Part shown: piece after piece, positions 14,897-37,163 of the stretch
Layout: each line of letters begins with the position of its first letter
Position numbering within the stretch: the first letter of the stretch is position 1
NCBI GenBank assembly: GCA_016350165.1
Contig: CP066225.1
Location: 1,798,001-1,862,000 of the forward strand
Origin: Planctomycetota bacterium
GTDB lineage: Bacteria > Planctomycetota > Phycisphaerae > Phycisphaerales > Phycisphaeraceae
Length of the DNA: 64,000 nt
Direction: 5' to 3'
The notes under the pieces: model-generated
What the model saw: the letters and a program-made list of their open reading frames with translations, nothing else
What the model was told of the DNA's origin: nothing
Databases searched by the model: none
Program-made: the position numbers and the translations under genes

Positions 14897-14921
14897 CTGT
14901 GTATTTACTGCACAGTTTTTT
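14897..14921 (+). terminator. Possible weak terminator after the RND pump gene
   Basis: A 5-bp stem CTGTG/CACAG with a 9-nt loop is followed by six T residues. It lies between the efflux operon and the convergent minus-strand gene. The stem is short, so confidence is modest. Confidence 0.45.
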
Positions 14922-14929
14922 CTTTTCAT

Positions 14930-17002: not shown

Positions 17003-17033
17003 AACCCATTAATCCCAAAATAGTTTTATCGAA

Positions 17034-18917: not shown

Positions 18918-18962
18918 CAGTAGCTCCCTCGAAATTTTACTTACTTCTTAACATTCACCCCC

Positions 18963-20918: not shown

Positions 20919-21314
20919 TTGGTCCCAGCTTCATTTCAAACTTCAATTAGCCCCACATCATCACCAATCCACCCACCCCACATAACCAAGACGTTTAGGT
21001 ACCCCCCAAGTTGCACCTCATTTTTTTTAATTCTCTCCATTCATAATTCATCCATCTAATACACCATTAGACACACTCCTAACCACCAATTCAACCACTA
21101 AACCAACGAACCACCACCATCAACACAGACCAATCCTATAACATTCAAAACGTTCAACCCACCTCATCTCTCTTATAAAATCTCTACCGCACAGTTTTCA
21201 TCCCCCTCATCATCATAAAACCTCTCACCTCCCCACCCTTTATCAACACTCCTCCATCTCCCCATCCTCCCATCTCTCTATTTCCCTATTTCCCTATTTT
21301 TCTAATTCTCTAAC
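20919..21314. other. Gene-free, G-poor spacer upstream of the paralogue array
   Basis: No gene is supported here. The plus strand is almost without G, for example throughout 21060-21310, and shows short CTATTTCC tandem steps near 21280-21300. Open frames in it have Pro/His/Thr/Ser-only composition and are artefacts of base bias. The promoter of the minus-strand paralogue array should lie at its left end. Confidence 0.6.
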
Positions 21315-22212
21315 CAACGATACGCTGTAGTGAAACAACTCAACTCAAAACAATGCACCACTCCTCAACCGCATACCTCACAACATTCTCTCCACCCCTC
21401 GTCCTACTTCTCTTCTCTTTTACCCAACCAACGACACGCTGCAGTGATACAACTTCCCCCCATAAAAACCTTCTACTACACACCCACCAAGCATCCCTAA
21501 CTTCACGATCACACCCCCACCCGAAAATACATACCGAAAACCCATCCCCCCATTTAACGTACGCTCTAATCAAACAACTCAGCCTCACAATACACAAACC
21601 ATACCACCACCAACACCTTCATTCCCCTGCACGTCATCCATTCTTTCCAACCAACGATACGTTCTAGTGATACAACCCAAACGACACACCACTCCTCAAC
21701 CTCACCCTCCACAACCATCAGCCACAACATTTGCCATTCTCAAATAACGACACAAGCTAGTGAACAACTTTCCCCCTATAAAAACCTTTTAAAACACACC
21801 CCCACACATCCTCACCTTCACGATCACACCGCCACCTGAAAATATATCAAAACCCCATCCCTCCATTTAACGATACGCTCTAGTGAAACAACTCAACCTC
21901 ACAAAGCACAAACCACCCCACCACCAACACCTTCATTCCCCTACACGCCATCCCCTCTTCCCAACCAACGATACGTTCTAGTGATACAACACAACCCAAA
22001 CAACACACCACTCCTCAACCTCGCCCTCCAAAACCATCAGCCGCTACATTTCCCATTCTCAACCAACCAACCACCAACGATACGCTACAGTGAACAATTC
22101 AGCCCCAAACAACGCATCACTCCTCAACCGCATACCTCACAACATTCTCTCCACCCCTCGTCCGACTTCTCTTCTCTTTTTCCCAACCAACGACACGCTG
22201 CAGTGATACAAC
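21315..22212. repeat. Nine-copy array of a 25-bp core in a higher-order repeat
   Basis: A core of the form CAACGAYACGYT, two variable bases, then AGTGAWACAAC occurs at about 21315, 21429, 21555, 21652, 21745, 21868, 21966, 22075 and 22188. Spacing is 93-126 bp. The linkers are also repeated: 21429-21744 matches 21745-22060, a unit of about 316 bp with three cores, and 22075-22212 repeats 21315-21453. All copies are in the same direction. The third copy (21555) is the most degenerate. The linkers are nearly free of G on the plus strand. No gene is seen. The structure is that of a tandem array that has undergone segmental duplication; its role is unknown. Confidence 0.85.
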
Positions 22213-22369
22213 TCAGTTCCCTAAACAACGTACAAAAACTTCAGCCATAAATTTAGTCGCTACCAAATGATCTTGATTCTCACTCACCATACCCCGCCTT
22301 GCCACACTTCCAACTAACCCGAAAACTGCTAACACCATATGAATCTGAGTCTCACTCACTCCGCCATAT

Positions 22370-22600
22370 CACATTTGTGCGCACAAATTGTTCCGTCCAT
22401 CGTTTTCGCGCGCACAAAAGCGCACAAAACTCACCGATTCCAAACCATTTCGACTCATTTCCAACCCATTTCAGCTCAAAGCGCGCGATTCTTGGCTCCG
22501 TAAAACCCCCTAGAAATGCACTTTTATGCGCGCAAACCCGTCTCCCCCGCGCGCTTTCGTGCGCAAATCCCCATCGCCCCAACGCGCTTTTCTGCGCGTC
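22370..22600. repeat. Cluster of small GCGC hairpin/palindrome motifs
   Basis: Within about 230 bp there are several short inverted repeats built on GCGC: the palindrome TGTGCGCACA near 22377, GCGC-ACAAAA-GCGC near 22412, GCGC-TTTCGT-GCGC near 22551, and ACGCGC-TTTTCT-GCGCGT near 22583. Related unpaired pieces such as TATGCGCGCAAA lie between them. The patch contrasts sharply with the G-poor sequence on its left. It contains no supported gene and precedes the PEP-CTERM gene by about 230 bp. Confidence 0.6.
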
Positions 22601-22832
22601 AGCACATCAACAAAAACAAATATCTATCCACCAGTTAGACCGCACATACACCAACCTGATCACCTTAAACAACCCATCTTCCCATGCCCGCAAAATCCAT
22701 CTGAAACGAGCACACGAACCACAACACACACACTGCTAAAAATGCGCTATAAACTTCCAAATTGATTAGAACCAGGCAGAAACATCAGCTAATCTTTAAA
22801 ACTCAAACACCTATCTCTTGGAGGAGAGAAGA

Positions 22833-24026
22833 ATGATTCAACCAAGCCGGATCGGCAAAGCTGCCGCTGTATCTGCAGCGATCTCTTTAACCACAGTTAC
22901 TTACAGCTACACATTCACCAACCTTAATGACATCATTGATAGTTCATACACCATCAATGACCTTGTCACCTCCGATCAAGGCCCCGACATCATCGTCGGC
23001 CGCACACAAACTCCACAAGGCAATCTCATATACAAGTGGACACCATCAACCGGTGCCATCGTTTTACCAAATCAGGACGCCCCACTGTATGCCAGTAGCA
23101 GCCCAAGCGTTTACACTTCCGACGATGGCAATACCCTTGCCTCCGAAGCTTTCGACGGTGGTCAATCCTCAACTTACCGCTGGTCCGCAAACAATGGGTT
23201 CAACTATCCCACTATCCCATCAAGTTTTATGCACAATGGGCAATGGTACGGCGCGCAAGAAAATGGGTCATCAGATATCTCTGGCGACGGCAGCACCATT
23301 GTCGGCAGCATCTTCACCGTCAACCAATTTCAGGATGACTACCTCAATCGCGCCTATCGCTGGACTGCCCACAACGACAAGGAATTGCTCAATGGCGCAG
23401 ACAGCAACTACTTCTGCTCATTCGCTTTCGATACCTCACACGACGGTTCCGTCATCGTTGGACGCGGCTTCAACACCAACAACAATCAAAACACAGCCTA
23501 CCGCTGGACCTCCCAAACCGGCGGTGTCAGCCTCGGCGATCTCGACGGCGGTAGCATATACAGCCACGCCAGCGCTGTTTCTTCCGATGGCAATATCGTC
23601 ACCGGTTCATCAAAATCTGAACTCGGGTTAGAAGCATTCATCTGGACCGAAAATGATGGCATGATCGGACTCGGCGACCTTGATGGCGGCCAATATAACA
23701 GCCACGCTTACGACCTTTCAGATGATGGAAATATTGTGACAGGCATCGGTTATAACGATGATGGGAGTACCGGCTTCGTCTGGATTACGGATCAGGGCAT
23801 GATGAGCGTACGTGAACTGCTCGAAGCCCAAGGGCTAGCCGATCAAATCGACGGCTGGAGTTTCGACAACGCTTACGTCAGCGATGATGGCAACTGGCTT
23901 TGGGGTCGTGGCAACGACGCAAACAACAGCGAAACCTACTGGTTCGCGCAAGTGCCAGAACCCGGAATGAGCCTTTTGTTGGGCACTGCTGCTGGGTTGC
24001 TGGTAATGCGTCGCAAGCGTGCATAA
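22833..24026 (+). CDS. HAF-repeat protein with PEP-CTERM sorting signal
   Basis: This 397-aa exported protein has an N-terminal signal peptide (IGKAAAVSAAISLTTVTYSY), repeated HAF-type units of the pattern YRWT...GGVSLGDLDGG...SHASAVSSDGNIVTG spread over residues 40-350, and a C-terminal PEP-CTERM anchor: VPEPGMSLLLGTAAGLLVMRRKR, that is PEP, a hydrophobic helix and an Arg/Lys cluster. PEP-CTERM proteins are processed by an exosortase and are usually surface or matrix proteins. ATG 22833 has GGAGGAG 6 nt upstream; a TTG at 22818 in frame lies before that site and is rejected. A strong terminator follows. No exosortase gene is in the window. Confidence 0.9.
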   Translation: MIQPSRIGKAAAVSAAISLTTVTYSYTFTNLNDIIDSSYTINDLVTSDQGPDIIVGRTQTPQGNLIYKWTPSTGAIVLPNQDAPLYASSSPSVYTSDDGNTLASEAFDGGQSSTYRWSANNGFNYPTIPSSFMHNGQWYGAQENGSSDISGDGSTIVGSIFTVNQFQDDYLNRAYRWTAHNDKELLNGADSNYFCSFAFDTSHDGSVIVGRGFNTNNNQNTAYRWTSQTGGVSLGDLDGGSIYSHASAVSSDGNIVTGSSKSELGLEAFIWTENDGMIGLGDLDGGQYNSHAYDLSDDGNIVTGIGYNDDGSTGFVWITDQGMMSVRELLEAQGLADQIDGWSFDNAYVSDDGNWLWGRGNDANNSETYWFAQVPEPGMSLLLGTAAGLLVMRRKRA

Positions 24027-24075
24027 TCGCAGATTGCTCAACAGAAAAACATCAGCATGAATTTACAATTCACTA

Positions 24076-24108
24076 AAAGCACTTGTGGTAACCACAAGTG
24101 CTTTCTTT
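24076..24108 (+). terminator. Terminator after the PEP-CTERM gene
   Basis: A perfect 12-bp stem, AGCACTTGTGGT with ACCACAAGTGCT, is followed by a T-rich tract about 50 bp after the stop codon. Confidence 0.85.
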
Positions 24109-24157
24109 ACATAATCTCCTATAACTACGCCGATCAAATACCCTTAATTTAGCGCAC

Positions 24158-24190
24158 AAAAAAAGACTCGCCGAGTGACGGCAAGTCTTT
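24158..24190 (-). terminator. Original terminator of tRNA-Val, now separated from it by the island
   Basis: Read on the minus strand, a 12-bp stem (AAAGACTTGCCG with CGGCGAGTCTTT, one mismatch) is followed by seven T residues. It lies directly downstream of the tRNA-Val 3' fragment at 24198-24221, so it was probably the tRNA terminator before insertion. Confidence 0.7.
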
Positions 24191-24197
24191 CTAACTA

Positions 24198-24221
24198 ATG
24201 GACCATACTGGACTCGAACCA
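24198..24221 (-). repeat. Left attachment site: 3' end of tRNA-Val duplicated by island insertion
   Basis: These 24 bp match 36681-36704, the 3' end of the intact tRNA-Val(GAC) gene, at 23 positions (ACTCGAACC here, ACTTGAACC there). They cover the T arm and acceptor 3' strand. No other part of a tRNA lies next to them. This is the pattern left when an integrative element recombines into a tRNA gene: the intact tRNA stays at one end and a copy of its 3' end at the other. Confidence 0.85.
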
Positions 24222-24530
24222 ATCCATCTAAAAACTGTAATTTCAGCAGATTAAGCAATCAACATAGTTCAGACAATGCAATATCCGGTGCATTTTCAAA
24301 ACAGACACTTCAAATAGCTCGAATCGTTGATTCCTTTTGCTCCGCAGAGCGAAAAATTGTTTTAAAGTGGCTACAGATGTTCTTTGATTCGCCATAGAGA
24401 ACCAACTTGGCATTTAACGCAAAGCTGTGTGCGCTGATATCCGACAGATGGAATTACAATGTCCCCAGTCAACCAACAACCCCAATACTAATTCTTATAA
24501 CTTCATGGATATCTAAACTTCTAAATTATT
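24222..24530. other. Gene-free left end of the island
   Basis: No supported gene, tRNA or clear repeat is seen in this AT-rich stretch of about 310 bp, which follows the left attachment site. It is probably degraded island sequence. Confidence 0.5.
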
Positions 24531-25022
24531 CTATTTTCCTATAACAATTCTTTGTTCTTTCGCCCATTCGATCCAATCTGAACGACTATCACGCAAAACG
24601 ATCTCATCAAGTAACTCTCACAACTGATCATTCTTCAAACCTTACCGAACATAATTACGTGTAAAGTTGCCGATAATCTGAACATTGTTTGGATCTGCTT
24701 CACACGCTCTCTCGTAATACCCTTGCGTTTTGCGACCCGCCCCACGGCTTCGCTTGCTACGCACATGCTTTGAACCAAAGTAAGATTCATCTATTTCTAT
24801 TTCTCCCGGGAAGAGATTTTGGCCTTCACAAAATTTGGCCAAACGCACACGGATTTTGAGGCAGATCGGGTTCACTGAACGCACAGACATACCGGTAAAT
24901 TCAGCAGCTTGGATAGCGGTCAGATCCATTGAAAATACTTTGATCAGATGCCTGAAAATCTTCTCTGTGATTCGGGAACGGCAATAGTATCGGTTTATGC
25001 CTTGTTTCACAGGACCAAACAT
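24531..25022 (-). pseudogene. Chimeric pseudogene: IS1595-like transposase fragment joined to a TPR-like fragment
   Basis: The first part (from 25022) resembles an ISXO2/IS1595 transposase: a helical segment (GINRYYCRSRITEKIF, TAIQAAEFTGMSVRSVN) and the catalytic-region start EIEIDESYFGSKHV...RSRGAGRKT with the first DDE Asp. The N-terminal zinc ribbon and everything after RGAGRKT are missing. The frame then runs into YYERACEADPNNVQIIGNF, which looks like a tetratricopeptide repeat. It meets TAA after NYVR and TGA soon after, although the frame continues as coding-like sequence (ELLDEIVLRDSRSDWIEWA) to a TAG at 24531. A deletion fused two genes and the product has decayed. Confidence 0.7.
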
Positions 25023-25044
25023 ACCTTAAAGCATGATTCGCTTT

Positions 25045-25434
25045 CTAAGACCTTATACTTATTATTTCATTATCAACATGAACTTGTTCTCGCAGTAGAT
25101 CTAAGATGTCTTTTGAATCATAAAGATGCCAACGTATAATTTTGCCATCATACATTTGAAGTATGCTAATTGCCTCACCGACATCCCGCAGCAACAAAAA
25201 CTGATGATTTTGTTTGATCTGGTTCTGATCCGTCAAAGCTTGATAAACCAGCACAATCTCTGGGCAAATACCGCCAACCATAATACCTTGCAATTCAAGA
25301 TCATTGATCGCCTGTTTGATCGGCTTACTTTCAACAGCACAACCTATAGCTGTACGTTTATGCGAATCAACTTCGAATGAGGTTGTCAGCATTTCTGAAT
25401 CCATTAGTAAATACTCTTCAAGTTGATAGAGCAT
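25045..25434 (-). CDS. Hypothetical protein, possible PilM/GspL-like fragment, 129 aa
   Basis: No firm family is recognised. The stretch AINDLELQGIMVGGICPEIVLVYQAL followed by LLLRDVGEAISILQMYDGKIIRW resembles the actin-like fold of PilM/GspL-type pilus assembly proteins, where a domain-linking helix precedes a strand pair. The protein is far too short for that family (usually over 300 aa), so it would be a remnant. It lies among decayed genes at the left end of the island, just upstream of the transposase pseudogene on the same strand. It could also be a random long frame. Confidence 0.35.
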   Translation of the reverse strand: MLYQLEEYLLMDSEMLTTSFEVDSHKRTAIGCAVESKPIKQAINDLELQGIMVGGICPEIVLVYQALTDQNQIKQNHQFLLLRDVGEAISILQMYDGKIIRWHLYDSKDILDLLREQVHVDNEIISIRS

Positions 25435-26231
25435 GGTCTCATAGCGCGGCTTACACCTAAATCATCCAAGTTGAATATAGCAGCATAACACCAAGTCGAA
25501 GGTAATGTAAGCAATGGAGTATTGATGACATTTTACCCTGCAAGATCTGCATATTGTGCATTCAATTCACCCTCCGCGATGAATGTATTAAACGGAGTTG
25601 ATCCCTGTTTCCAGCAACAAACGACCAACACCCCTCACAAAGCGAGATTGCATGTAGTTTCTCTTCTGTCGTCTTTACATGAATTCTATATTAAAGGTCT
25701 ATTGTTCTTGATCGCTTTAGTCTGCAAATTCGGCATCGCTGCGACGCCGGATGCACATATTCCATTTCACACCAACTACATTATGCTTGGCGCAACTCTT
25801 GTCCTCGCCTTTACTGGAGCAAAACGCTTTAGTGTTGATCATGCTATAACAATCATCTAGCCAAACAAATTCGAAAACCATATAGAAATTTCTTGAATTA
25901 AACAATTCTCGTATTATTTGCCGGCATCGATGATGCGTTATTGTATAGATTAACGATTCCCTTTGGTCTTAAATGTAACTAAACCGTCACTATGCCAATA
26001 AACATTGTATTACATAAAGCAACTACATACTCCCTCATAAAAAACACTCTAAGTACGCAATTACATAACCTTTACATCGAATACTCTTATGGCATAAATA
26101 TTCTTCAACAATTGAATAGATTTGTGCCAACTTTAATCTACTACACACGAACTTTCACCAAAAGAAGAACGGCCAGAAGATTCTGACCGTTCTTTACAAT
26201 TAGTACAATATTACCATACCCAGTAAATCAT
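25435..26231. other. Island spacer with a possible DoxX-like remnant
   Basis: This stretch of about 800 bp has no convincing intact gene. A plus-strand frame at 25522-25860 (112 codons) ends with FHTNYIMLGATLVLAFTGAKRFSVDHAI, which resembles the last helix of DoxX-family membrane proteins, preceded by one hydrophobic segment. The first half looks non-coding. It may be the tail of a broken gene. The rest is AT-rich without recognised signals. A GAACGGTCAGAA / TTCTGACCGTTCTT inverted repeat with a T run near 26168-26197 may terminate transcription. Confidence 0.35.
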
Positions 26232-29200
26232 CTATTTATCTTTATCTGAATCAGAATAACGTTGGAGTACATCGCGTAACTTAAATTCACCTTTGACTGG
26301 GTTAAACGTACGAGCACGGTTGTAGATTAGGCCACCTTTGATGCCGACTAGGTTTTCGTCGTGCATCAAGCCTTGATGACCAAACTCATTGAGCGTAGCC
26401 ATGTAATTAACGTAGCCATCACCACGTGTCGGTTGCGATCTGAAGATTTGTGTTGTCAGCCTCGGATCACTCTTCTTCAAATTATCCACACTACCCGGAT
26501 AACTCGGTGAATAGAAGCCAAATGGCTCATCCGCATAACCTGGTGTATTTGAGAACGTAAATACAATTCGCTCTCCGTATGGCGTATATTCGTATCTTTC
26601 AATCAAAGTACCATATGGGTTTACAATGCCGAGAATATTGTAATTGGCATCCTGCAAAGCATATGTCGTGATATATTCTTCCATCTCAAAGCCAGAATAA
26701 ATTCTAACGGTGCGACTTTCTACAAGCTCATCGACATAATTCAGTCCCCAGACATTTTGCTTGAGGATTTCATCACTATCATCACGTACTTCGATCTGAC
26801 GCATACCTTCGTAGTAATAGTGATATGTATTGTCTAGATTATCACTGTTATGCACCTGCTTGATGATACGCTTACCAAGTGCATCATATTGATTGCTTTG
26901 AACAAGTGCACCATTCTCTACATTGCCTAACGTGTTACGGTGAGCTTTGTAGACCTGAGTCATGCGGTTCCAAGCATCGTAAGTGTATGCATACACACCA
27001 TCGAATGTCATGTTGCCAGCAGCATCATATTCATAAGTGTTTTGAGCATAGCTATCGGTCACTTCAAAATCATCAAAGTGCTCAACTCGGTCGAAAGTGC
27101 CGTCACCATTGGAATCGGTACGGACTAAGAAGTCATCAACATAAGAGGTGGCTCCTGTTGAGAGCAAGCCAACCTGACCACCTTCATCGCCAAGACCTGT
27201 AACGGTATAACAAACAGAAGCACTATTCAGAGCTGAATCGATCGATGCATCATAATTGACTGATGCTGCTGACTTCACGATACGGACTTCGATAACACCA
27301 TTCACACGCTGTACGCGAACCCACAGTTTGTCGGACTCTGTGACATCTGGGTAATTCGCACTGGTATATGTACCACTCGCATATTGAATTGTTCCGCCAT
27401 TATCGATTGTGTAGGATCGTATCGTCGAGGAACTCGTTTTTTTGGTCACATCATTATGTGAGAAGATCAGTGCTTTAAAGTTATTGATATCTCTTGCACC
27501 AAACACGAGCTGCATCATGTGGGTATGGGTATCACTTGTTTTACGCTCAAAACTGAAGGTTGTTTCAAAGTCATCAAGGTATGAACCCTTCATGAGCAGT
27601 GGATATGTTTGATAGCCATAACTCCAAGATAATTGAACTCGGTTCTTCCCGCCTTCTGTGTTAAGTGGCATCAGGCTGTAGTTCGCCCAACGTCCCAAGA
27701 AATCTTGAGCGGTAAAACTATCCATATGCAGGAAGGAGTCGAACTTTACACCACTTTGCGTCGTGAACAAGCCAACACGACCAGCTGGATAACCATCAGG
27801 TATACTTCGCCACATCTTAATCGAATGAGCCCGACTGTTGGTGTAAAGGAACTGCTTCGAATTGAGCGTGACTGTGGTATTACCTGATTGCACCTCATTC
27901 TTTACGCCATTCTCGACATGGTAAAGTTTAACATATGACTGAGCCGCATTGTACTGCCTGACATAAAGCCAATAGTCATTCACTGATTTGTAGCCAAACA
28001 CAAGACCCGCTTCAGCTCCGTCAACAGTTCCTGTTGGGAATTGTGTATAGCAGCCGATATTACTTTGCCCTGTTTCCGGCATCGCCAGCAGAATCGTCGC
28101 CTCTGAACCTGCAACATTCGTAACCTCAAGCATACTTGAGCCGCCGGAGTTAAAGACGAACTGGTCGCTGACATCTAGTTGCTCCCAATCAGCTGCTTGG
28201 GTTGTATTGCTGAATCCCGAGACAAAACGTGGATTACGACCTGCCAAAGTCTTGCGGTACTCATATTCATTGGCTTTATTTACAGCTTGTTTATGACGGA
28301 CTTCTCTATCCTTATAAACATTAAGCTTTTTGATTTCCAGTTGATTACCAAGTTGATCAAGTTTCCATTCTGTCAGGTCAACAATACCAACCTTCTTAAT
28401 GTCGGGTGATGTTGGTAAACCTGTAATGGTACCCGCTTCATAACCTTTCAGGCGGTGTAAATCATCGTAGCTGTAAAGGTGCGATGCTCTTGGATACTCA
28501 ACACGGTCAGCATAGAGCCGATTCGATGCTCTATCGTATGCGTGATTAATATTAAAAATATCATCCACCACATCACCGTTATCATCATATCGTTCCCATT
28601 TGAGCTTATTGATACGGCTAAATCGATCCAGGTGTTCATCACCAGTAGAGCCTGCAAAATCAAGACGTACCTGTGGCTTCGGATAGGCCTTGGCAATCAC
28701 ACGTCCATCACCGTCACGCTCATATGAGACAATCACGTTCGCATCATCAGTCCCACGTGTTGCATTGCCTGAGATGGAGGTAATACGGTTAATGTAGTGA
28801 GAAAGACCATTTGCATCGCCTGCATCGCTATATAAGTAATGCACACCTCGGCCGTTCGGATACGTAATCTTCTTTAGACGCACACCTTTAACTGTGTCTG
28901 ATCCATCTTCATATTCGTAAGATACCGTATGAGTAAAACCATCTTCACTTGAATCTGGTGTTTGAGTATTTGATGTCAACTGTCCAAAATCGTTATATGA
29001 ATATACTGTTTCATTAACAGCTGTACCATTTTCTGGATCTGCATCATCGTAACTCGTTACTTTACCCAACAAACCACGCTTGTTGTAGCCATAGCTTAAT
29101 GATTCCACTGAACCATCAACAGCACTATCCCATTCCGTCACTTTATCGAGCAGCAAACGTCCCAGGATATCTCTTTCAAATTCACGCTTAACACCACGCT

Positions 29201-32200
29201 GGTCTTTAGATGACGTAACCCGGCCAAAACGGTCATACGTCAATTTCACGCGGTCATTAGCATCCTCTGAATCTGGATATTGAATTTCTGTCAGCAGTGT
29301 ATTGCTTGCAACATCAGAATCAGCCAAAGTCGTGCCGTAGACATATGTTGTCACCTGATCATCTGAATAATCACCATCTGCATTAGGATCGATGGCTGTA
29401 ATCGTTTTGATCTTACCACCTGCCGTATACGTATACTTCGTAGCGCGGTTGACATCATTATCACGACTCATCGGCAGGTTACTGGATGAATTCCAAGTAG
29501 AAGACTGGTAATTTTCAATGACATAAATCTTCTGACCAATATCATTAAAAATGACTTTTGTACTGACCCCTTCCGGATCTGTCATTATTTGAGCCCGAAC
29601 AACTATGTCTTGAGTGTTATACTCATGACTTGAGACCAAAACACTTGCAGTCGACGACGGGACTGATGCTGAACGTGTAAACGCAGCACCATCATTGTCA
29701 CCATAATTCGCACTCGCTATTCGGTTGCCTTCTTGGTCATACCAATACGCAAGATAGGTCGCATGGGCATTCGCAGAATCCAGAGCACCCACCGTGCTTT
29801 GATCGTCATGTTTACGTGAATATGTTTCACTGGATAGAAGTTGCCCCGCAATATTGTATGCGTATTGCGTCTGCGTAAGAATTGTGTCTCCTGTTGTCAG
29901 CTTGACCTCTGGGTATGCCGATTCCGATGGAGAGTTATCGTATCCACTATACACCGCAACTTGGCGACCAAGATCGTCGTATTGGATCTTTGCAAACCGT
30001 ACGCCATCACCTGCATTTCTTGACTTGATAACATTGCCTGTATCGTCATACCAATAGTTAGATGACAGGCTATTACCCACAACACCTGTATCCGGATTCA
30101 CCGCGAACTTGGTTTCACGATATTTACGACCACGAGCATCGTACCCATACTCTGTTTTACTCAACAACGTGCCTGTTGAAGTCGTTTCTACCTTATCTAA
30201 CAATTCCGTTTGTACATTTCGGCCAATATTGTCGTACGTACTCTTTGCATAACGTGCATATGTGTCACTATCATCAAAATTGCCATCTTGATTCTGATCG
30301 ACAGCACCCGTACCTTCAACAACACGGCGACCTAACCAGTCATAATCGTAAACAGTAACAAGCTTATCGGTATCGCTTGCGTACCGAGTGATCTTGGTGA
30401 TTTGCCCTTCATCTGAATATGTACCATTATCGTACTCATATTCCGCGACAATACGCATATCATTATTTGATGCACCACCAGCGGAAGGATCTGCTGATGT
30501 TGCGCCAGTATCATCGGTGCCAACATACTCTTTGACTAGATATCCTAGTTCATCATAAACATAACGCGTCACCGTACCATCCTGCGCTTCGTAGCGAGCT
30601 TTCTTACCTGTAACCGCATCATACTCATAATACGTTTCCAGATAATTATTGCTCACGCCAAGCTGGCCATCACCAGTTGTTCCTTCGCTGCCCATTGGGA
30701 TGTCATGATAAACTCTTGTTGTAACGAGCTGATTCTTATCGTTGTAAAAATTCTCTGTCCATGACTCAATGTCAGCGGGCGTCGGATTCAAGCCATCAAT
30801 TCCACCATCTGCCAAATCTGCGCAAACAAGCGTTTTATGCACTCGCTTACCATCTTTGCTTACCCACTGTATCGTGAATGATTCAGACATATAGCTTTCA
30901 TGATTTGAACCTGCAACACTATATCCCTGTGCTGTTCTGAGTTGATCTAGTTCGTTATATGCACTATCAACATACACATAATGCGTGACACTCTGAATAT
31001 TAGTTGCTGTACCCGACTTTATAACTTCATGTGCTGGCCCGACTTCGTAAGTCAAACGGGCTTTATGGTCATACTCGTAGATCCATCCCTGATGCAAACC
31101 CGCGTAGCTGCTGGAGACCCATGATGGATGTTCTGAAACACCGAGTGATGACACGATCGGATCTATAACCCTTTTGATGGGTTTACCGATGAACGGGTCA
31201 TATTCGATATATGTAACAACACCATTCTCGTCTTTTCGCCATGTCAAATTGCCGAATCGATCGAATGCCTCGTAACGTTGAACGACCGCGCCTGAACCGT
31301 TTTCATCTGTCATAACGGTTGGCAAGATCGTAATACGTTCTTTAATGTTTGTAGAATTCTCATGCAAAACATACTGATACTCAGTTGTATTCTGAACCAA
31401 CTGATCATCAGCATCTGGGTACTTGATAAGTTTCTTCAATCGAACCACAGGTTCATAACCTGTTAATACATTACCCTGATCATCTTTTGGATAATGAGAT
31501 TCGTATTCTCTCTTTTCACTCAAGATCTCTGTTGGTGCAGTATATACACCACCATCGTAAGAGCCCTGCCCCTTCTGATATGAACGTTTTTCTATTTTGC
31601 CATGAGTACCGTATTCAAATTGCTCAATAATCCCATCATTTGACTTTAAATTTGTATAAAGTGGATTTCCTTTGTCATCTGTTATAACTTCGCCATTTCC
31701 ATCGGTTTCTTTTTCCATCACATGGCTAGCGTTCCAATCTACCGGCATAGAACTATAGTTAATGCTACTATTATGTATCTTTCTTGTTTTTTTACCCTTC
31801 GAATTATATTCATAAAAAGTTGTAGTACTAATACTTTGATAATCATTACTGCTGCCAGATGGCAATTTATGATTCACCTTTTTTGACCGGTAGATTGGTC
31901 TATTATTTAGATTTCCATAAAATGTAGTTTGTGTTCGCGGCGGCAGGATCCCACCAGTACCCCCATTACTTGTACCTCGTGGTAATGACATTGATGTGCT
32001 ATTTATCGTTGTGTTATACTTACCTTTCCTCACCGATGCACTATCTGACGTTTGCATCTTGGGATACGGGTTCATATTCGTATAACTAAACTGATCTCCT
32101 AAAATATTAGTACCACCTGAACTACCTGAACAAGAACCACAACCTGCCTTGGCAATCTCTTTCGAAATTGCTCTCTTATAAAACATATTCGCGGAACTAT

Positions 32201-33620
32201 CTTGGGCATATTCAAATTGGTAGTCTGCAAATTTCAACCACTCTGCAAGCGGTATAGTATTGCTACTTTGTGTAGCATTTGCCATCAAACCTAATGATTG
32301 CATGCTACTTACACCACTGCTCTCTACAGACATCTGTCGGTACGCGTCTGAGTTAATAATGTATTTTATCTGCGTTCTAGCAAGATTATAGTTACTACCA
32401 TCACCGCCGGCGTATTTGCCCTCATCATATTTATACATTGATATTCTTGACGCGGTATCCTGAAAATTTGTTTGCGCAGAGTTAGGCTCAAATACTTCCA
32501 CCTTTTCAAGCATAAAATATTGATGATCACTCACAACATCCTCATAATCACCTAACTCCGAACCTAAATAGTACACTACTTTACCAATTTTCATCTCCTG
32601 ATATTCATCATTGATTTTTATGTAACGGCTCATTGAGGCTTCTTTTAGCGTAAAGCCAAAAGCCGTTATTAAATCATACAAATCAGCGTAGCTATAGGTA
32701 ATTAGGTCATACGCAACGCCATCATGCGGAAATATTCGCTTCAACTGTTTTGGGAAACCGCGTATCCACGGAATTTGTTCGATAATAAAGCCCTGATCAT
32801 ATGTTCTTTCAGACACACCTATAATTATGCCACTTGAATCTTCATATCTTAGAAAGGTTCCAACAGGAGTATGATCAGTAATACCTAATTCGCCATTATC
32901 ATGCTTTACATAACCATCGTATTCAGCCTTATCTGATACGAACCCCCCTGACGGGTCGTCTAAATCACCATCATCACCGCCATCATCATAAAAATCACGG
33001 AAAATATATCTACCACCATTATATTGATATATATATTCATGCCGTACGATATCATGTGTTAATGAAATACCATCGCCATCGCCTTCTAATGTATAGGCAC
33101 CGTTCTCATACACAAATACCTTAGTTCCATAAGGATGCAATGTGATGTAGATTTTATCTCCATCACTTATATCTACTATTTGATTACTGCTGTGCGTTTT
33201 CTCCCCTATACGTGGCATCCCCGGTGTATAAAGATATGGCCATTGCGTGAGAAACCATCCCGCACCAACATGCCCCTGCCCATTCTCGGTAAGTACAGTA
33301 TAAGGATCATTATAATCAATATTTTTTATATCACTTGGATGTATTCTAGTAATACCAAACTGCGACATTCCCAACGGATCTGCCACATCAACTGCTGTGA
33401 TATTTTTTCCACCAGACCCTAAAGTAACGGGGTAATCTGATTTCCCCTCACAAGAACCGTCATCACCAGAATCAATACTCGGCGTATGGCCAATCTGACC
33501 ATAAGGCTTAGCATTTAGTTCATTACCCCCAACCAAGGAGATAATAAATGATCCTATCAAAATTAAATAAAAGTGAATTACAGATAAATGTGATTGTCTA
33601 TCAAAATTTGAAGTTTTCAT
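26232..33620 (-). CDS. Giant secreted YD/RHS-repeat protein, 2462 aa
   Basis: The N-terminus is a signal peptide with a hydrophobic core (FYLILIGSFIISLVGG). Residues to about 550 are unique, with a Cys/Gly/Ser cluster GCGSCSGSSGG near residue 490. From about 570 to 1760 there are many YD repeats (such as TEYGYDARGRKYRETKF, YDELGYLVKEYVG). At about 1800-2190 two beta-rich modules of about 190 aa interrupt the repeats; they resemble LamG/GH16-type jelly-roll modules (FVFNSGGSSMLEV..., LDDFETTFSFERKTSD...). The RHS core then resumes (YDAWNRMTQVY, YNILGIVNPYGTLIERYEYTPYGERI) and ends GGLIYNRARTFNPVKGEFKLRD. Only about 15 residues follow, so no C-terminal toxin is present. It overlaps the stop of the upstream gene (ATGA). 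Likely role is a surface or secreted encapsulating shell; cargo is unknown. Confidence 0.9.
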   Translation of the reverse strand: MKTSNFDRQSHLSVIHFYLILIGSFIISLVGGNELNAKPYGQIGHTPSIDSGDDGSCEGKSDYPVTLGSGGKNITAVDVADPLGMSQFGITRIHPSDIKNIDYNDPYTVLTENGQGHVGAGWFLTQWPYLYTPGMPRIGEKTHSSNQIVDISDGDKIYITLHPYGTKVFVYENGAYTLEGDGDGISLTHDIVRHEYIYQYNGGRYIFRDFYDDGGDDGDLDDPSGGFVSDKAEYDGYVKHDNGELGITDHTPVGTFLRYEDSSGIIIGVSERTYDQGFIIEQIPWIRGFPKQLKRIFPHDGVAYDLITYSYADLYDLITAFGFTLKEASMSRYIKINDEYQEMKIGKVVYYLGSELGDYEDVVSDHQYFMLEKVEVFEPNSAQTNFQDTASRISMYKYDEGKYAGGDGSNYNLARTQIKYIINSDAYRQMSVESSGVSSMQSLGLMANATQSSNTIPLAEWLKFADYQFEYAQDSSANMFYKRAISKEIAKAGCGSCSGSSGGTNILGDQFSYTNMNPYPKMQTSDSASVRKGKYNTTINSTSMSLPRGTSNGGTGGILPPRTQTTFYGNLNNRPIYRSKKVNHKLPSGSSNDYQSISTTTFYEYNSKGKKTRKIHNSSINYSSMPVDWNASHVMEKETDGNGEVITDDKGNPLYTNLKSNDGIIEQFEYGTHGKIEKRSYQKGQGSYDGGVYTAPTEILSEKREYESHYPKDDQGNVLTGYEPVVRLKKLIKYPDADDQLVQNTTEYQYVLHENSTNIKERITILPTVMTDENGSGAVVQRYEAFDRFGNLTWRKDENGVVTYIEYDPFIGKPIKRVIDPIVSSLGVSEHPSWVSSSYAGLHQGWIYEYDHKARLTYEVGPAHEVIKSGTATNIQSVTHYVYVDSAYNELDQLRTAQGYSVAGSNHESYMSESFTIQWVSKDGKRVHKTLVCADLADGGIDGLNPTPADIESWTENFYNDKNQLVTTRVYHDIPMGSEGTTGDGQLGVSNNYLETYYEYDAVTGKKARYEAQDGTVTRYVYDELGYLVKEYVGTDDTGATSADPSAGGASNNDMRIVAEYEYDNGTYSDEGQITKITRYASDTDKLVTVYDYDWLGRRVVEGTGAVDQNQDGNFDDSDTYARYAKSTYDNIGRNVQTELLDKVETTSTGTLLSKTEYGYDARGRKYRETKFAVNPDTGVVGNSLSSNYWYDDTGNVIKSRNAGDGVRFAKIQYDDLGRQVAVYSGYDNSPSESAYPEVKLTTGDTILTQTQYAYNIAGQLLSSETYSRKHDDQSTVGALDSANAHATYLAYWYDQEGNRIASANYGDNDGAAFTRSASVPSSTASVLVSSHEYNTQDIVVRAQIMTDPEGVSTKVIFNDIGQKIYVIENYQSSTWNSSSNLPMSRDNDVNRATKYTYTAGGKIKTITAIDPNADGDYSDDQVTTYVYGTTLADSDVASNTLLTEIQYPDSEDANDRVKLTYDRFGRVTSSKDQRGVKREFERDILGRLLLDKVTEWDSAVDGSVESLSYGYNKRGLLGKVTSYDDADPENGTAVNETVYSYNDFGQLTSNTQTPDSSEDGFTHTVSYEYEDGSDTVKGVRLKKITYPNGRGVHYLYSDAGDANGLSHYINRITSISGNATRGTDDANVIVSYERDGDGRVIAKAYPKPQVRLDFAGSTGDEHLDRFSRINKLKWERYDDNGDVVDDIFNINHAYDRASNRLYADRVEYPRASHLYSYDDLHRLKGYEAGTITGLPTSPDIKKVGIVDLTEWKLDQLGNQLEIKKLNVYKDREVRHKQAVNKANEYEYRKTLAGRNPRFVSGFSNTTQAADWEQLDVSDQFVFNSGGSSMLEVTNVAGSEATILLAMPETGQSNIGCYTQFPTGTVDGAEAGLVFGYKSVNDYWLYVRQYNAAQSYVKLYHVENGVKNEVQSGNTTVTLNSKQFLYTNSRAHSIKMWRSIPDGYPAGRVGLFTTQSGVKFDSFLHMDSFTAQDFLGRWANYSLMPLNTEGGKNRVQLSWSYGYQTYPLLMKGSYLDDFETTFSFERKTSDTHTHMMQLVFGARDINNFKALIFSHNDVTKKTSSSTIRSYTIDNGGTIQYASGTYTSANYPDVTESDKLWVRVQRVNGVIEVRIVKSAASVNYDASIDSALNSASVCYTVTGLGDEGGQVGLLSTGATSYVDDFLVRTDSNGDGTFDRVEHFDDFEVTDSYAQNTYEYDAAGNMTFDGVYAYTYDAWNRMTQVYKAHRNTLGNVENGALVQSNQYDALGKRIIKQVHNSDNLDNTYHYYYEGMRQIEVRDDSDEILKQNVWGLNYVDELVESRTVRIYSGFEMEEYITTYALQDANYNILGIVNPYGTLIERYEYTPYGERIVFTFSNTPGYADEPFGFYSPSYPGSVDNLKKSDPRLTTQIFRSQPTRGDGYVNYMATLNEFGHQGLMHDENLVGIKGGLIYNRARTFNPVKGEFKLRDVLQRYSDSDKDK

Positions 33621-34996
33621 CTGATAGGCCCCTCAAGATGATTAAGTTGCGCTTTAAGTTCATGCAAACGTTTTGTTAACTGTTTTAGACCTTCCTCGTT
33701 GGTCGGGTCATATTTTTCGATACGTTTTATCTGCTGCCTGACAACTTTCAGATTGGCCACAATCTCGTTGTACTGGCGCATGTAATCTTGCTGCTTCTGC
33801 TCTGCAGCATAAAGATCACGCAAATAGGCTATATTTTGCTTATTACCTTCCAACCGCTCAGTAATAGCAGGATCTGTCGTCGTTACTTTTTCACTTAGCT
33901 GACTTGCATTATCAAAATCACGCAATGCTGAATACGATTCAATCTGATTTAGCAATGCTTCCTGTTTCAAAACTTCAGACACAGACAAACCGATCGCTTT
34001 CTTTTCCCACTCCAAACCCGCCAAAGCACGCGGCGCGTAAGAATTTATCTGCTCGGTATACGATCTAATTTGCAACCAGATGTACTTTTCTTCATCACTA
34101 GTCGCAGCATCAAGCCGACTCTGAATCTGCTCGACCCATTTCTGATAACTCTCTGTTGCATTAGAAACAACAACCGTACCCTTACCGCGTTTAAAAATGG
34201 TTTTTTGTCTAGTATAAAAATGAGACGCCAGCTTATACCCAACCAACCTGTCTTCCAACCGTTCCAAGCTATCAACCGAACTGACAAAATCTTCGATATC
34301 TGTAATCATTAATGCCAAAAAATACGCTTCTGCGTATTGATTCATCTTGCGTATCGGTGACACCAAACCTCGATAATATGGACAAGCACTATCATCGATA
34401 GTGCTACGTATATCTTCATGCCAGAACGGGTTAAGAAATGCGAGAATCGTACTGTCCACCCGAATACGGTCCTCATCCTTGTCAAAACCATCTATCAGCG
34501 GCAAAACCGCTCGTCCCAATTCCGGCCCCCGATTAATTGAATCTACTAATTCTTCTTGTCTATATTGTAATGATTCTAGCTTTAACGATTTTCCAGATAT
34601 AACATCAAGGAAAGAACATAGAATCACCCACTGCCGACGCTCAATATCCGAACCAACACTGGCTTGAAATTCTTCTGAATCAAGATATTCATGTATCACA
34701 TCAGACGCTATAACTCGCTGGGCTTCTGTAACTAACGTTGAACCACCCAATATGGCTACGAGAACATTTTTCGGAGAATGCTGTGCCAGCCCCTGATAAC
34801 CACCATCAAAATATTGCCCCCAATTCGATTTCGCTAAATCTCGAACCGCAGCATCATTCGTATTACCGCAAATCACCTTCTGATACACATCACCACTAGC
34901 TATTACTTCTTTTGCACCTTGTCCCAAACCTAAAACACCCACGTACAAAGACGCACCCAGCAATGCCACTAATAGAACAATTAAATACTTTGCCAT
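33617..34996 (-). CDS. Exported hypothetical protein coupled to the YD/RHS gene, 459 aa
   Basis: No family is recognised. A hydrophobic N-terminus (YLIVLLVALLGASLYVGVLGLG) acts as signal peptide or anchor. The rest is helical and hydrophilic, with a C-terminal coiled coil at about residues 390-455 (YMRQYNEIVANLKVVRQQIKRIEKYD..., LTKRLHELKAQLNHLEG). The stop codon overlaps the ATG of the giant YD/RHS gene as ATGA, so translation of the two is probably coupled and they likely act together outside the cytoplasm. This is the first gene of the pair, with an AT-rich spacer of about 190 bp before it for the promoter. It is the best candidate for a dedicated partner of the YD/RHS protein. Confidence 0.8.
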   Translation of the reverse strand: MAKYLIVLLVALLGASLYVGVLGLGQGAKEVIASGDVYQKVICGNTNDAAVRDLAKSNWGQYFDGGYQGLAQHSPKNVLVAILGGSTLVTEAQRVIASDVIHEYLDSEEFQASVGSDIERRQWVILCSFLDVISGKSLKLESLQYRQEELVDSINRGPELGRAVLPLIDGFDKDEDRIRVDSTILAFLNPFWHEDIRSTIDDSACPYYRGLVSPIRKMNQYAEAYFLALMITDIEDFVSSVDSLERLEDRLVGYKLASHFYTRQKTIFKRGKGTVVVSNATESYQKWVEQIQSRLDAATSDEEKYIWLQIRSYTEQINSYAPRALAGLEWEKKAIGLSVSEVLKQEALLNQIESYSALRDFDNASQLSEKVTTTDPAITERLEGNKQNIAYLRDLYAAEQKQQDYMRQYNEIVANLKVVRQQIKRIEKYDPTNEEGLKQLTKRLHELKAQLNHLEGPIR

Positions 34997-35207
34997 TTTG
35001 CCCTAAATTCGCTTAGAGAATAATCTATTTACATGCAGACTAAATTCTACAGATGGTTATGAATTTACTTTAGCAAGCAAGATATTTCAAGCATTTTCTT
35101 ATATACATCCACCACAAACAAGCTAACCTCTCATCTCTTCAATAAACAAAATTTTACGACTACCGTAATTGCTCGACGCACTCTAGTTGCTATATAAAAT
35201 CACAACC

Positions 35208-35966
35208 ATGCAGAAACATAGCATCATCATCCAAGCACTCGGCCTATTCTTGATCAGCACCGGGGCTTTCAAGTTTTTCACTGATCAATCTACCATCAAC
35301 CTGTGGCTTGTTGTACCGCTTGAAATTATCGTTGGCGTATTTTCGCTACTACGTCCCAAACTAAACGCAACTCATTGGACACTACTATTCTTATTTGCCA
35401 CATTCTCGATATACACCGCAACCAACATTTTTCAAAACAACAATGACTGCGGCTGCCTCGGAGCAATCACCATCAACCCATGGTTTACGCTGATATTTGA
35501 TATTTCAGTTTTTATATACTTAATCGCAATCAAACAAATTGACGATCAAAACATAAAACTGTTAACCCCTACTTGCATCACAATAGCCGCTTCATTGATG
35601 GCAACGACCATTTACTTTCAACTCAACAAAGCGACAACTCCACCCGCACAAACATCTACCACAAACAATACAAATTTTCCTGAAATATCATCGCTGAATA
35701 TTTCCAATCCACTTAGCAGTACAAATCCGAAGACAGAAAAAACAATTTTCATATACGATCAGCATTGCCCACTATGCCTTAACATTGCTTCCCAATCAAT
35801 ATTAGATGCAATAGATATTTCGCAAGCTCAAGATTACATACAAAACGATTCTAGCAACACCAATCAAAGCAACCGCTCTTTATTACCATGGCTACTAACA
35901 AACAACGACACTAGTCCAACAATTCTATTGAAGCCAACCCATTCAAGCATCGGGACATTAAGGTAA
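35208..35966 (+). pseudogene. MauE/DoxX-like redox membrane protein, 3' truncated at the integrase junction
   Basis: The frame from ATG 35208 starts with four hydrophobic helices (IIIQALGLFLISTGAFKF and others) and the motif CGCLGAITINPWF, typical of MauE-like membrane proteins that handle disulfides. After a linker there is FIYDQHCPLCLNIASQS, with a CPLC pair like a thioredoxin active site. The last codons (from about 35924) overlap, in another frame, sequence that encodes the integrase remnant, so the natural C-terminus was lost by a deletion. A TTG at 35187 is in frame but ATG 35208 is more likely. The product may still be made but lacks much of the second domain. Confidence 0.55.
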
Positions 35967-36700
35967 CGATTCGAGGCAACAAGGAAGACAGAACCTATAT
36001 CCCTCATGATGTGATTGCGTAATTGCTGAAATATGCTCAGTCGAGCGAATGGCGGCTGTTGATCCTGATGGGGCGATACTGCGGAGTACGTGTGCCGAGC
36101 GAGATCAAGGGGCTAACGTGGGGGGATGTGAATTTCGCAGAGGGCCGATTGAGGGTGTACGCTCCCAAAACTCGTACAGAACGGATTGTGCCGATCTTCC
36201 CAGAGGTAAGGGATGAGCTGATGAACATCTACGAGGCGACCTCTGAGAGGCGCGTTAACGTATTCAGCGAGGAAATCACCAAACACGCCAACCTTGGAAC
36301 CCCATTAAAGCGGCTGGCGAAGCGTGCAGAGTTGGTCAATTCAGAGGGATTCAGGTGGAAGGTTATGAGGGCGAGCAGATCAACGGAGATCCTGCAGCAA
36401 TACGGACCACATATCGAGAGCGACTGGATCGGACGCGGCGCCGATGTGGCACTTGAGCATTACGCCATGACCCTGAATGAAGATTTCGCACAGGCCACAA
36501 GTGGGGAATCCAGCCTGTCTGAATTTGATGAAAAAAGCGCGCTGCAAAATCCGGTGCAAAATGTGCATTTGTTAGGTGGATTCACGGGGAATGAAGAGGA
36601 AGGCGAAAACTCAGAATTCCTCTCTATTCCGCTAGAATCTCATAAAAATAACCCCTTGCTATTACAAGGGGTTGCGTCTGATGGACCATACTGGACTTGA
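35924..36700 (+). pseudogene. Tyrosine recombinase (integrase), N-terminally truncated, with in-frame stop
   Basis: The frame reads NPFKHRDIKVTIRGNKEDR..., then YIPHDVIA, a TAA stop at 36020-36022, then LLKYAQSSEWRLLILMGRYCGVR. The catalytic domain follows: RYCGVRVPSEIKGLTWGDV (Arg I), MRASRSTEIL (HxxR-type region, with M-R where H-x-L-R is usual), DWIGRGADVALEHYAMT (His/Tyr region). It is of the integrase type common in planctomycetes. The N-terminal SAM-like domain is missing because the MauE-like gene is joined directly to it. Its own stop, TGA at 36698-36700, lies inside the tRNA-Val T arm, which is normal for elements integrated in tRNA genes. A shorter product from TTG 36023 could be made but should be inactive. 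Confidence 0.8.
36650..36673 (-). terminator. Island-borne terminator for tRNA-Val
   Basis: A perfect 9-bp stem AACCCCTTG/CAAGGGGTT with a 6-nt loop is followed, on the minus strand, by an ATTTTTA tract. It lies 9 bp after the tRNA 3' end and inside the integrase remnant, so the island supplies a replacement for the tRNA terminator it displaced. Confidence 0.7.
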
Positions 36701-36755
36701 ACCAGTGACCTCCTCGATGTCAACGAGGCGCGCTAGCCAACTGCGCCAATGGTCC
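36682..36755 (-). tRNA. tRNA-Val (anticodon GAC)
   Basis: On the minus strand the 74-nt cloverleaf is complete: acceptor GGACCAT/ATGGTCC, D arm GCGC/GCGC, anticodon stem CCTCG/CGAGG around loop TTGACAT (GAC), T arm ACTGG-TTCAAGT-CCAGT, discriminator A. CCA is not encoded. Its 3' half end from the T arm onward is the right attachment site of the island and was probably brought by the element. Confidence 0.95.
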
Positions 36756-37163
36756 TCCTTATTCAGGGGCTCAAAGTATACACCTACTCAGCTTCCTTGC
36801 CAACCTCAGATGCGACGCACAGATTTCAACGAGTTTTGCACACATTACTTCTGTCACATTCCCAGTTTAAGTCCACCCTCATTACTAACCTAAAAAGCCC
36901 ATTATCCGGCTCATTACCCATTTCTTCATTGACACAAACAGCCCTCGAATGTTATATAAAACTATATAATCCGCCCTCCTCAGGCAGGTTATAACTGCAT
37001 GTGTGACAGAAACCTGCGCTTTTTCGCCTGTATCACTTTTAAAACAAGCGCATTACAGAAACGCTCCGTAGCGTCGAAGCGATCAATCGCTCTGCCGCCG
37101 GATTCATATAACCCGCGTTCAGTACGTCACTTAATCGTTTTCTAGGTCTAGCACGGATATTTT
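36756..37163. other. Spacer between tRNA-Val and spmA
   Basis: No gene is supported in this stretch of about 410 bp. It should hold the promoters of the tRNA (left end, minus strand) and of spmA (right end, plus strand). Nothing else was recognised. Confidence 0.5.

Follow-up and report, generated by a model that had tools for sequence, protein, structure and literature searches.

The stretch between positions 24198 and 36704 of the window (the whole stretch of 64,000 nucleotides analysed here, equivalent to bases 1,798,001-1,862,000 of the 5.23-Mb chromosome of a planctomycete with a one-contig genome) is, judging by its sequence, a genuine, partly ruined island in a transfer RNA (tRNA) gene, tRNA-Val(GAC). 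The explanation favoured here, which as a whole we consider highly probable, is that an integrative element inserted at the 3' end of this gene and that the 12.5-kb stretch represents its decayed remnant. The element would belong to a family of tyrosine-integrase islands spread across this planctomycete class, in which the integrase gene itself contains the attachment site, close to the 3' end of the gene. In the circular form, the frame of this gene would read across the tRNA-like core and on into a conserved tail of some 50-80 residues; on integration, the codons for the tail would end up at the opposite end of the island and a few tRNA-antisense codons would take their place, leaving the catalytic part whole beside the tRNA. 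The window appears to have kept both integrase halves (Table 1). As cargo, the element would have carried a copy of a locus comprising a type II secretion system (T2SS) operon and a giant RHS gene, the other copy of which lies at 968-992 kb; most T2SS genes and the C-terminal domain of the RHS protein would have been lost, and the RHS gene (RHS1) and its partner gene are likely to have been kept open by constraint, aided by gene conversion with the second copy.

Boundaries of the island and its empty site

At the left end of the island a displaced copy of the tRNA-Val 3' end was located by local alignment, with 25 of 27 identical bases at 24195-24221 and 23 of 24 in its core. A search of the whole chromosome with the repeat pattern (allowing up to two mismatches) identified four sites, namely both island ends with 0 mismatches and a tRNA-Val(TAC) pair with 2, and the reversed pattern, used as a control, gave 0 sites. 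An earlier sequence-only reading of this DNA had proposed such a 24-bp repeat, an intact tRNA-Val at 36682-36755, an integrase remnant reading into the tRNA and a pair of swapped terminators. Each of these features was recovered: the repeat by the searches above, the tRNA by ARAGORN, the integrase by a match to PF00589 in a frame that has lost its N-terminal part and contains an internal TAA, and both hairpins, by eye, where they had been placed, the left one also having a counterpart in G001, the sole further genome of the same genus among the genomes searched. The sequence-only reading additionally predicted that at an empty site tRNA-Val would be followed directly by the left terminator and the PEP-CTERM gene. 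In G001, tRNA-Val(GAC) lies at L028:13083-13156 with the counterpart of that terminator directly at its 3' end, as predicted; window positions 24152-24221 and 36681-36842 align to overlapping parts of one G001 stretch (L028 13039-13105 and 13082-13243, respectively), and the blocks to the right of the tRNA are colinear between window and G001. The PEP-CTERM part of the prediction failed, because window positions of about 14.9-24.15 kb, which include that gene, have no counterpart beside tRNA-Val in G001. Within this stretch (14900-24150) the GC skew drops to -0.5 to -0.76 across 15-22 kb.

The GC content of the island is 0.418, as against 0.484 and 0.461 in the flanks and 0.456 in 234 kb of further loci of the same genome, and GC at third codon positions is 0.361 in RHS1, compared with 0.337 in one of six flank genes and 0.503-0.583 in the other five. 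Among the tRNA islands catalogued by Islander, as the available text describes them (PMC4383910), one finds the same combination of a displaced tRNA 3' fragment, a regenerated tRNA, a tyrosine integrase and an empty site in a relative; in the window, the displaced fragment lies at the far end, an integrase (remnant) adjoins the tRNA and G001 provides the empty site. The regions around the flank gene in G008, G019, G021, G038 and G039 contain no tRNA and were left out of further comparison; full-length matches of this gene in named records include one in a Phycisphaerae metagenome-assembled genome (43%).

The integrase frame at the two island ends

The integrase remnant of the window is 50% identical to the intact 450-aa integrase of the tRNA-Tyr island of the same genome, relative to which about 184 N-terminal residues are missing. 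A Pfam scan of the remnant gave PF00589 only and no Phage_integr_3. At the tRNA, the integrase frame stops at a TGA within the core; at the left repeat, the lone core mismatch gives CGA instead and the frame runs on to codon 66. The peptide encoded there (GPYWTRTN...AISGAFSKQTLQIARIV...) matches the frame at the left end of the tRNA-Tyr island. These two left ends align with a score of 107 (best of 200 shuffles, 32), a homology that is accounted for if the integrase frame continues there. Over 36 codons, the two tails differ at 7 first, 3 second and 13 third positions, and 8 of the differing codons are synonymous. No match was found between the left ends of the window and of the tRNA-Ile copy described below (score 17, shuffle maximum 27).

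The same arrangement recurs in relatives. In 28 of 30 related integrase loci the frame ends past the antisense tRNA 3' end, and 21 islands outside the window were examined over 19-65 kb each, comprising 19 of the 30 loci (those on long enough contigs) and the tRNA-Leu and tRNA-Tyr islands of this genome. Wherever a displaced repeat was located (17 of 17 islands), the integrase frame is open from the displaced core for 53-100 codons. Because this holds for the window and for all 17 islands, the integrase gene probably contains attP and has its tail replaced on integration; with each insertion, an island of this family thus appears to sever the tail of its integrase gene. Many of the tail peptides share a motif of the kind GGAxCGAL...DPDLAxLVxAWPxLPPAIRAGIVAMV. 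Leave-one-out profiles of 19 tails (those of the window, the tRNA-Ile copy and the 17 islands, from residue 13 onwards) exceed the best of 200 shuffles in all 19 cases and clearly so in 17; the window tail scores 11.5 bits against 2.7. A profile of all 19 tails finds matches in at least 239 of the 397 genomes of the class, and among the matches listed most frames are well under 300 codons.

In integrated islands the integrases retain their catalytic match and the tail alone lies elsewhere; a catalytic domain and a tail in one uninterrupted frame were found in G442, and also in G465, where the front is decayed. When the G442 frame was used to query the 397 genomes, only the query itself and G268 (with three stops) pass residue 234, the start of the conserved tail, among the matches listed, and the listed frames of G468, G484 and G133 end at residues 227-228, just past the core. 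Such scarcity of fused frames is to be expected if nearly all chromosomal copies are integrated. The unsplit G442 frame had no match in plasmid and phage records.

Several observations weigh against a split integrase frame. Four of the 21 islands gave no test, since G014 had no tRNA call and displaced copies of 14 nt or longer were lacking in G021, G038 and G001; the displaced repeats are in some cases as short as 14-18 nt; of the 36 codons compared between the window and tRNA-Tyr tails, 19 differ and 11 of these change the residue; the profile of the other tails does not recognise that of tRNA-Ile (1.9 against 1.8 bits) and recognises that of G064 only narrowly (15.1 against 12.4); the fused frame of G442 begins where its contig does; and neither a circular form nor a transcript or protein was observed. 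Open frames of 50-80 codons are, moreover, common in GC-rich DNA, and non-integrase frames at displaced repeats reach 269 codons in GC-rich genomes, as would suit an ordinary tRNA island whose left repeat is followed by an open frame by chance. The case consequently rests on frame and motif, not on length; both are common to islands of AT-rich and GC-rich genomes, and together with the leave-one-out profiles they make an origin by chance very improbable indeed. That the tail is instead a separate small gene of the element at its left end, for example a regulator, also seems improbable, if less extremely so. It would be in keeping with the physical separation of tail and integrase in integrated islands and with the fact that no joint product has been observed, but relative to the core the tail stands in the integrase frame in 17 of 17 outside islands, in the window and at the tRNA-Ile copy, and in G442 and G465 a single frame holds both.

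Further elements of this genome were recorded alongside. The tRNA-Tyr island (26 kb; G000:C1:2762539-2788573; L105, L104 and L039) carries a sister integrase that is intact, its displaced 3' end at 2,762,539 is an exact copy, and by eye its open reading frames (ORFs) include type I restriction-modification-like genes and a small excisionase-like protein; it would be a good living model for the split-integrase question. At G000:C1:992386-1083590 (L035, L069, L107-L109 and L041) the 3' end of an intact tRNA-Ile gene, which has its own integrase, recurs as an exact 24-bp copy at a distance of 91 kb. The displaced copy is adjoined by an integrase-tail remnant and by a second, 1.56-kb piece of the end of the T2SS operon (81%), and several giant ORFs in the stretch resemble one of 5338 aa. 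A 9.2-kb element at tRNA-Val(TAC) (L037:4854-14173; G000:C1:3819854-3829172), with an exact 24-bp displaced 3' end, has the look of a filamentous prophage, its genes, named by eye, including a Zot-like ATPase, a secretin-like protein, a small coat-like protein and an integrase.

The RHS cargo, its second copy and T2SS operons

RHS1 contains RHS/YD repeats (PF05593, E 1.2e-17), and a second copy of the RHS gene (RHS2) and its partner lies in the same genome at 981,053-990,369. The second copy follows a T2SS operon whose secretin, ATPase, F and G proteins were named by Pfam and whose pseudopilin-like and accessory genes, named from sequence, extend as far as 968.3 kb, where a TPR gene lies. In the island, remnants of this TPR gene, of the g444/GspC-like gene end and of a DoxX-like gene are followed by RHS1, the partner and a MauE-like gene, all in the same order and orientation as at the second locus; the T2SS genes between g444/GspC and DoxX are missing from the island, and the MauE-like gene is cut where the integrase remnant starts. 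Two candidate interpretations of the left part of the island were rejected: the front part of 24642-25022 has a motif like that of an IS1595-type transposase, but it has no Pfam family and its end is the TPR remnant, and genes of an uncharacterised kind were discarded because the colinear remnants derive this DNA from the T2SS locus.

The sequence-only reading had described an intact two-gene cargo. Both genes are indeed open, but from comparison with the second locus the cargo is incomplete, most T2SS genes, the C-terminal domain of RHS2 and the ORF downstream of it having gone. RHS1 is 185 residues shorter than RHS2 and stops directly after the RHS core; RHS2 extends 207 residues from DPYG, and its end is overlapped by orf215, which has no Pfam family. 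The variable C-terminal domain present in RHS2 and relatives is absent from the RHS1 of the window, and no counterpart of an orf215-type small ORF was found downstream of RHS1. A search for relatives of the partner gene in 101 genomes (own included) gave the two own copies and one weak match in G030, and a further scan of genome contigs gave none.

The two RHS genes share exact runs of 438, 83, 266, 206, 1,137, 404, 63, 63 and 569 nt, which alternate with blocks of 41-91% identity per 30 codons, and since the copies alternate in this way gene conversion is indicated. Similarly, codons 330-418 of the partner copies are one base apart and codons 1-325 are mostly 79-87% identical (70% in one window). 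The number of synonymous substitutions per site (dS) is 0.018 in the converted RHS parts and 1.65 in the unconverted ones; the two RHS copies, about 0.84 Mb apart, continue to exchange sequence. A still more extreme example in this genome is a pair of T2SS operons sharing 9,128 identical bp (968,287-977,414 and 4,480,360-4,489,487; L034, L068 and L106), the adjoining secretins being about 41% identical, so that recent conversion ends at the secretin gene.

The pairwise ratio of non-synonymous (dN) to synonymous substitutions (dN/dS) is 0.09 for partner codons 1-325 and 0.09, 0.10, 0.21 and 0.33 for four unconverted RHS blocks; in the first 640 RHS codons synonymous sites are saturated (dN 0.49). 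As one wholly neutral copy should give a pairwise dN/dS of about 0.5 or above, both copies were presumably constrained for most of their separate history, and the values of 0.09-0.33 in the measurable unconverted blocks support constraint on the cargo. Differences after conversion are, however, too few to prove selection on RHS1 alone, which counts against that part of the explanation: the strictly defined converted tracts contain 13 differing codons, 7 synonymous and 6 non-synonymous (5 and 3 when tract edges are dropped). A count of 14 synonymous and 5 non-synonymous differences (Nei-Gojobori, looser tract borders) was discarded as proof of selection after this strict recount. The earlier proposal that selection keeps the cargo thus holds for the pair of copies; for the RHS1 branch, which also swaps sequence with the second copy, no outgroup is available, because the partner-gene searches gave no usable relatives.

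It could be argued that RHS1 and its partner are unselected and owe their intact look to recent conversion that erased mutations, given that exact tracts cover much of the RHS gene and one partner end and that RHS1 has lost its C-terminal domain. We regard this as rather unlikely, as the unconverted parts are open too, with the low pairwise dN/dS values given above where measurable, and as the neighbouring g444, DoxX-like and MauE-like genes decayed while RHS1 and its partner stayed open. A stronger contender, quite possible if somewhat short of probable, is that the cargo did not travel with the element: a segment of the 968-992 kb locus would have been copied and have entered, by recombination, a tRNA-Val island of earlier date. 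The T2SS operon beside tRNA-Ile occurs in G001 too, there without RHS, and the 9,128 identical bp indicate that the genome readily duplicates such DNA. Against a segmental copy speak the one common order of T2SS remnants, RHS gene, partner and MauE-like gene in both copies, and the distance of about 270-310 bp that separates the TPR gene from a displaced tRNA end both at the left end of the island and at the second T2SS 3' piece (992.7 kb). A further displaced tRNA-Ile copy to the left of the RHS module at the second locus was not found (up to 4 mismatches in 24).

The association of RHS genes with T2SS operons extends to relatives. In 61 genomes searched for both (secretin matches listed at E <1e-40; a weaker pair in G062 left out), 63 RHS loci were present in 31 genomes and at least nine lay within 15 kb of a strong secretin match on the same contig (G000, G006, G071, G026, G070 twice, G060, G061 and G053), where random placement would give 0.39 (Poisson P 4e-10). 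The pair in the present genome (G000) prompted the idea of linkage and is counted among the nine; without it, there are eight in 62. Gene maps place T2SS genes next to RHS in G071, G006, both G070 loci, G053, G060 and G061, the last having only a secretin and an ATPase and then a recombinase gene; the maps of G026, G053 and one G070 locus are cut by contig ends. When 12 long DPxG frames were compared past the last DPxG by BLASTP, only those of G060 and G061 were linked, and two of the 12 (a giant ORF at the second locus and the first of the frames from G006) are not RHS C-termini. Linkage far above random placement suggests an export route for RHS proteins, and fits a scheme in which those with variable tips leave by the T2SS. 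The literature search, made in part of the relevant texts, found no report of RHS export via T2SS. The genes resemble the RHS polymorphic toxins, as described in the accessible text of PMC3150448, in their RHS/YD repeats, a core ending in DPxG, and a variable C-terminal domain with a small ORF in RHS2 and relatives; they differ in the linkage to T2SS operons and in the missing variable domain of the window copy, and their toxin and immunity roles are putative. In G062 (L102:3407-16142, G062:C28) two RHS end fragments, each with a small ORF behind it, come after a full RHS gene, an arrangement that resembles the orphan cassettes of polymorphic toxins.

Table 1. Features of the tRNA-Val(GAC) island and its borders (window positions)
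Feature	Position	Strand	Basis
Original tRNA-Val(GAC) terminator, stranded at left end	24158..24190	-	hairpin and T-run by eye; G001 counterpart directly after tRNA-Val
Putative integrase tail codons, integrase frame, 66 codons and TAG	24197..24397	+	homologous to tRNA-Tyr island left end; profile match
Displaced tRNA-Val 3' end (attL core), 23/24	24198..24221	-	local alignment and chromosome search
TPR-gene remnant (gene closing the T2SS operon)	24534..24743	-	tblastn 70% over 70 aa
g444 remnant (frame-shifted) and GspC-like gene end	25054..25714	-	79% DNA identity to 970.156-970.810 kb; tblastn, three pieces
DoxX-like gene remnant	25705..25851	+	colinear with second locus
RHS1, giant YD/RHS gene encoding 2462 aa, with a signal-peptide-like start and without a C-terminal variable domain	26232..33620	-	PF05593; paralogue RHS2 2647 aa
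Longest exact RHS1-RHS2 tract, 1,137 nt	29067..30206	-	coordinates computed from R1 residue numbers
Further exact tracts with RHS2	about 31170-31610, 28413-28817, 26745-27314	-	computed from R1 residue numbers
Partner gene (459 aa; identity to paralogue, 88%)	33617..34996	-	no Pfam family
MauE-like gene, truncated; paralogue residues 9-255 of 375 kept, DUF1573-like part gone	35193..35930	+	comparison with paralogue
Tyrosine integrase remnant, corresponding to the sister from residue 185; internal TAA at 36020-36022, final TGA within tRNA core	35927..36700	+	PF00589; intact sister
Island-borne terminator, now adjoining tRNA	36651..36673	-	by eye; same hairpin follows tRNA-Tyr gene beside its integrase
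Intact tRNA-Val(GAC), integration target (attR)	36682..36755	-	ARAGORN

Relation to known elements and meaning of a probable division of the integrase gene

Self-disrupting integrases were called exclusively archaeal in a 2021 review (PMC8371274, available to us in part). The SSV-type ('suicidal') archaeal integrases treated there resemble the present case in that the attachment site lies within the integrase gene, the gene is divided between the ends of the element and the elements lie beside tRNA genes. In the SSV type, according to the same text, the gene is cut in two, both fragments are said to be inactive, the catalytic part lies in the C-terminal one and the enzyme is of the Phage_integr_3 family; here, only the C-terminal tail moves, the catalytic PF00589 domain appears to stay whole and the host is bacterial. 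Because of the bacterial host, the different integrase family of the window enzyme and the restriction of the displacement to the tail, the islands would be a variant of the same idea and not members of the SSV type. From the Islander islands, in so far as the consulted text covers them (PMC4383910), they differ in that the integrase points into the tRNA and its frame resumes beyond the attachment site. No description of an attachment site inside a bacterial integrase gene was found in the literature covered, which lay mostly outside subscription journals and included the accessible parts of PMC3218068, PMC12884075 and PMC10111431.

The planctomycete islands look like a bacterial version of the split integrase, in which the enzyme is re-tailed rather than destroyed. 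In the integration-dependent immunity of mycobacteriophages the attachment site lies in a coding gene and integration alters the C-terminus of a control protein; there it is the repressor gene that is cut, whereas in the island family described here it would be the integrase gene. The C-terminal segments of tyrosine recombinases regulate subunit exchange, and a change of integrase activity with integration state would for this reason be the most likely consequence of losing the tail, although whether such a change occurs is, in our estimation, about evenly balanced. A tailed protein would be made from the circular form, its activity would differ from that of the tailless protein and it would most likely favour integration. 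Tentatively, and with slightly less than an even chance of being correct in full, we propose that bacterial integrases with attP in their own gene occur across the class, that the tailed, circular form is proficient in integration and the tailless, integrated form has another activity, and that the islands thereby possess a built-in directionality switch. Should the two integrase forms indeed have different activities, the enzyme itself would carry the record of whether the element is integrated, which would provide a directly testable answer to how these islands control their direction.

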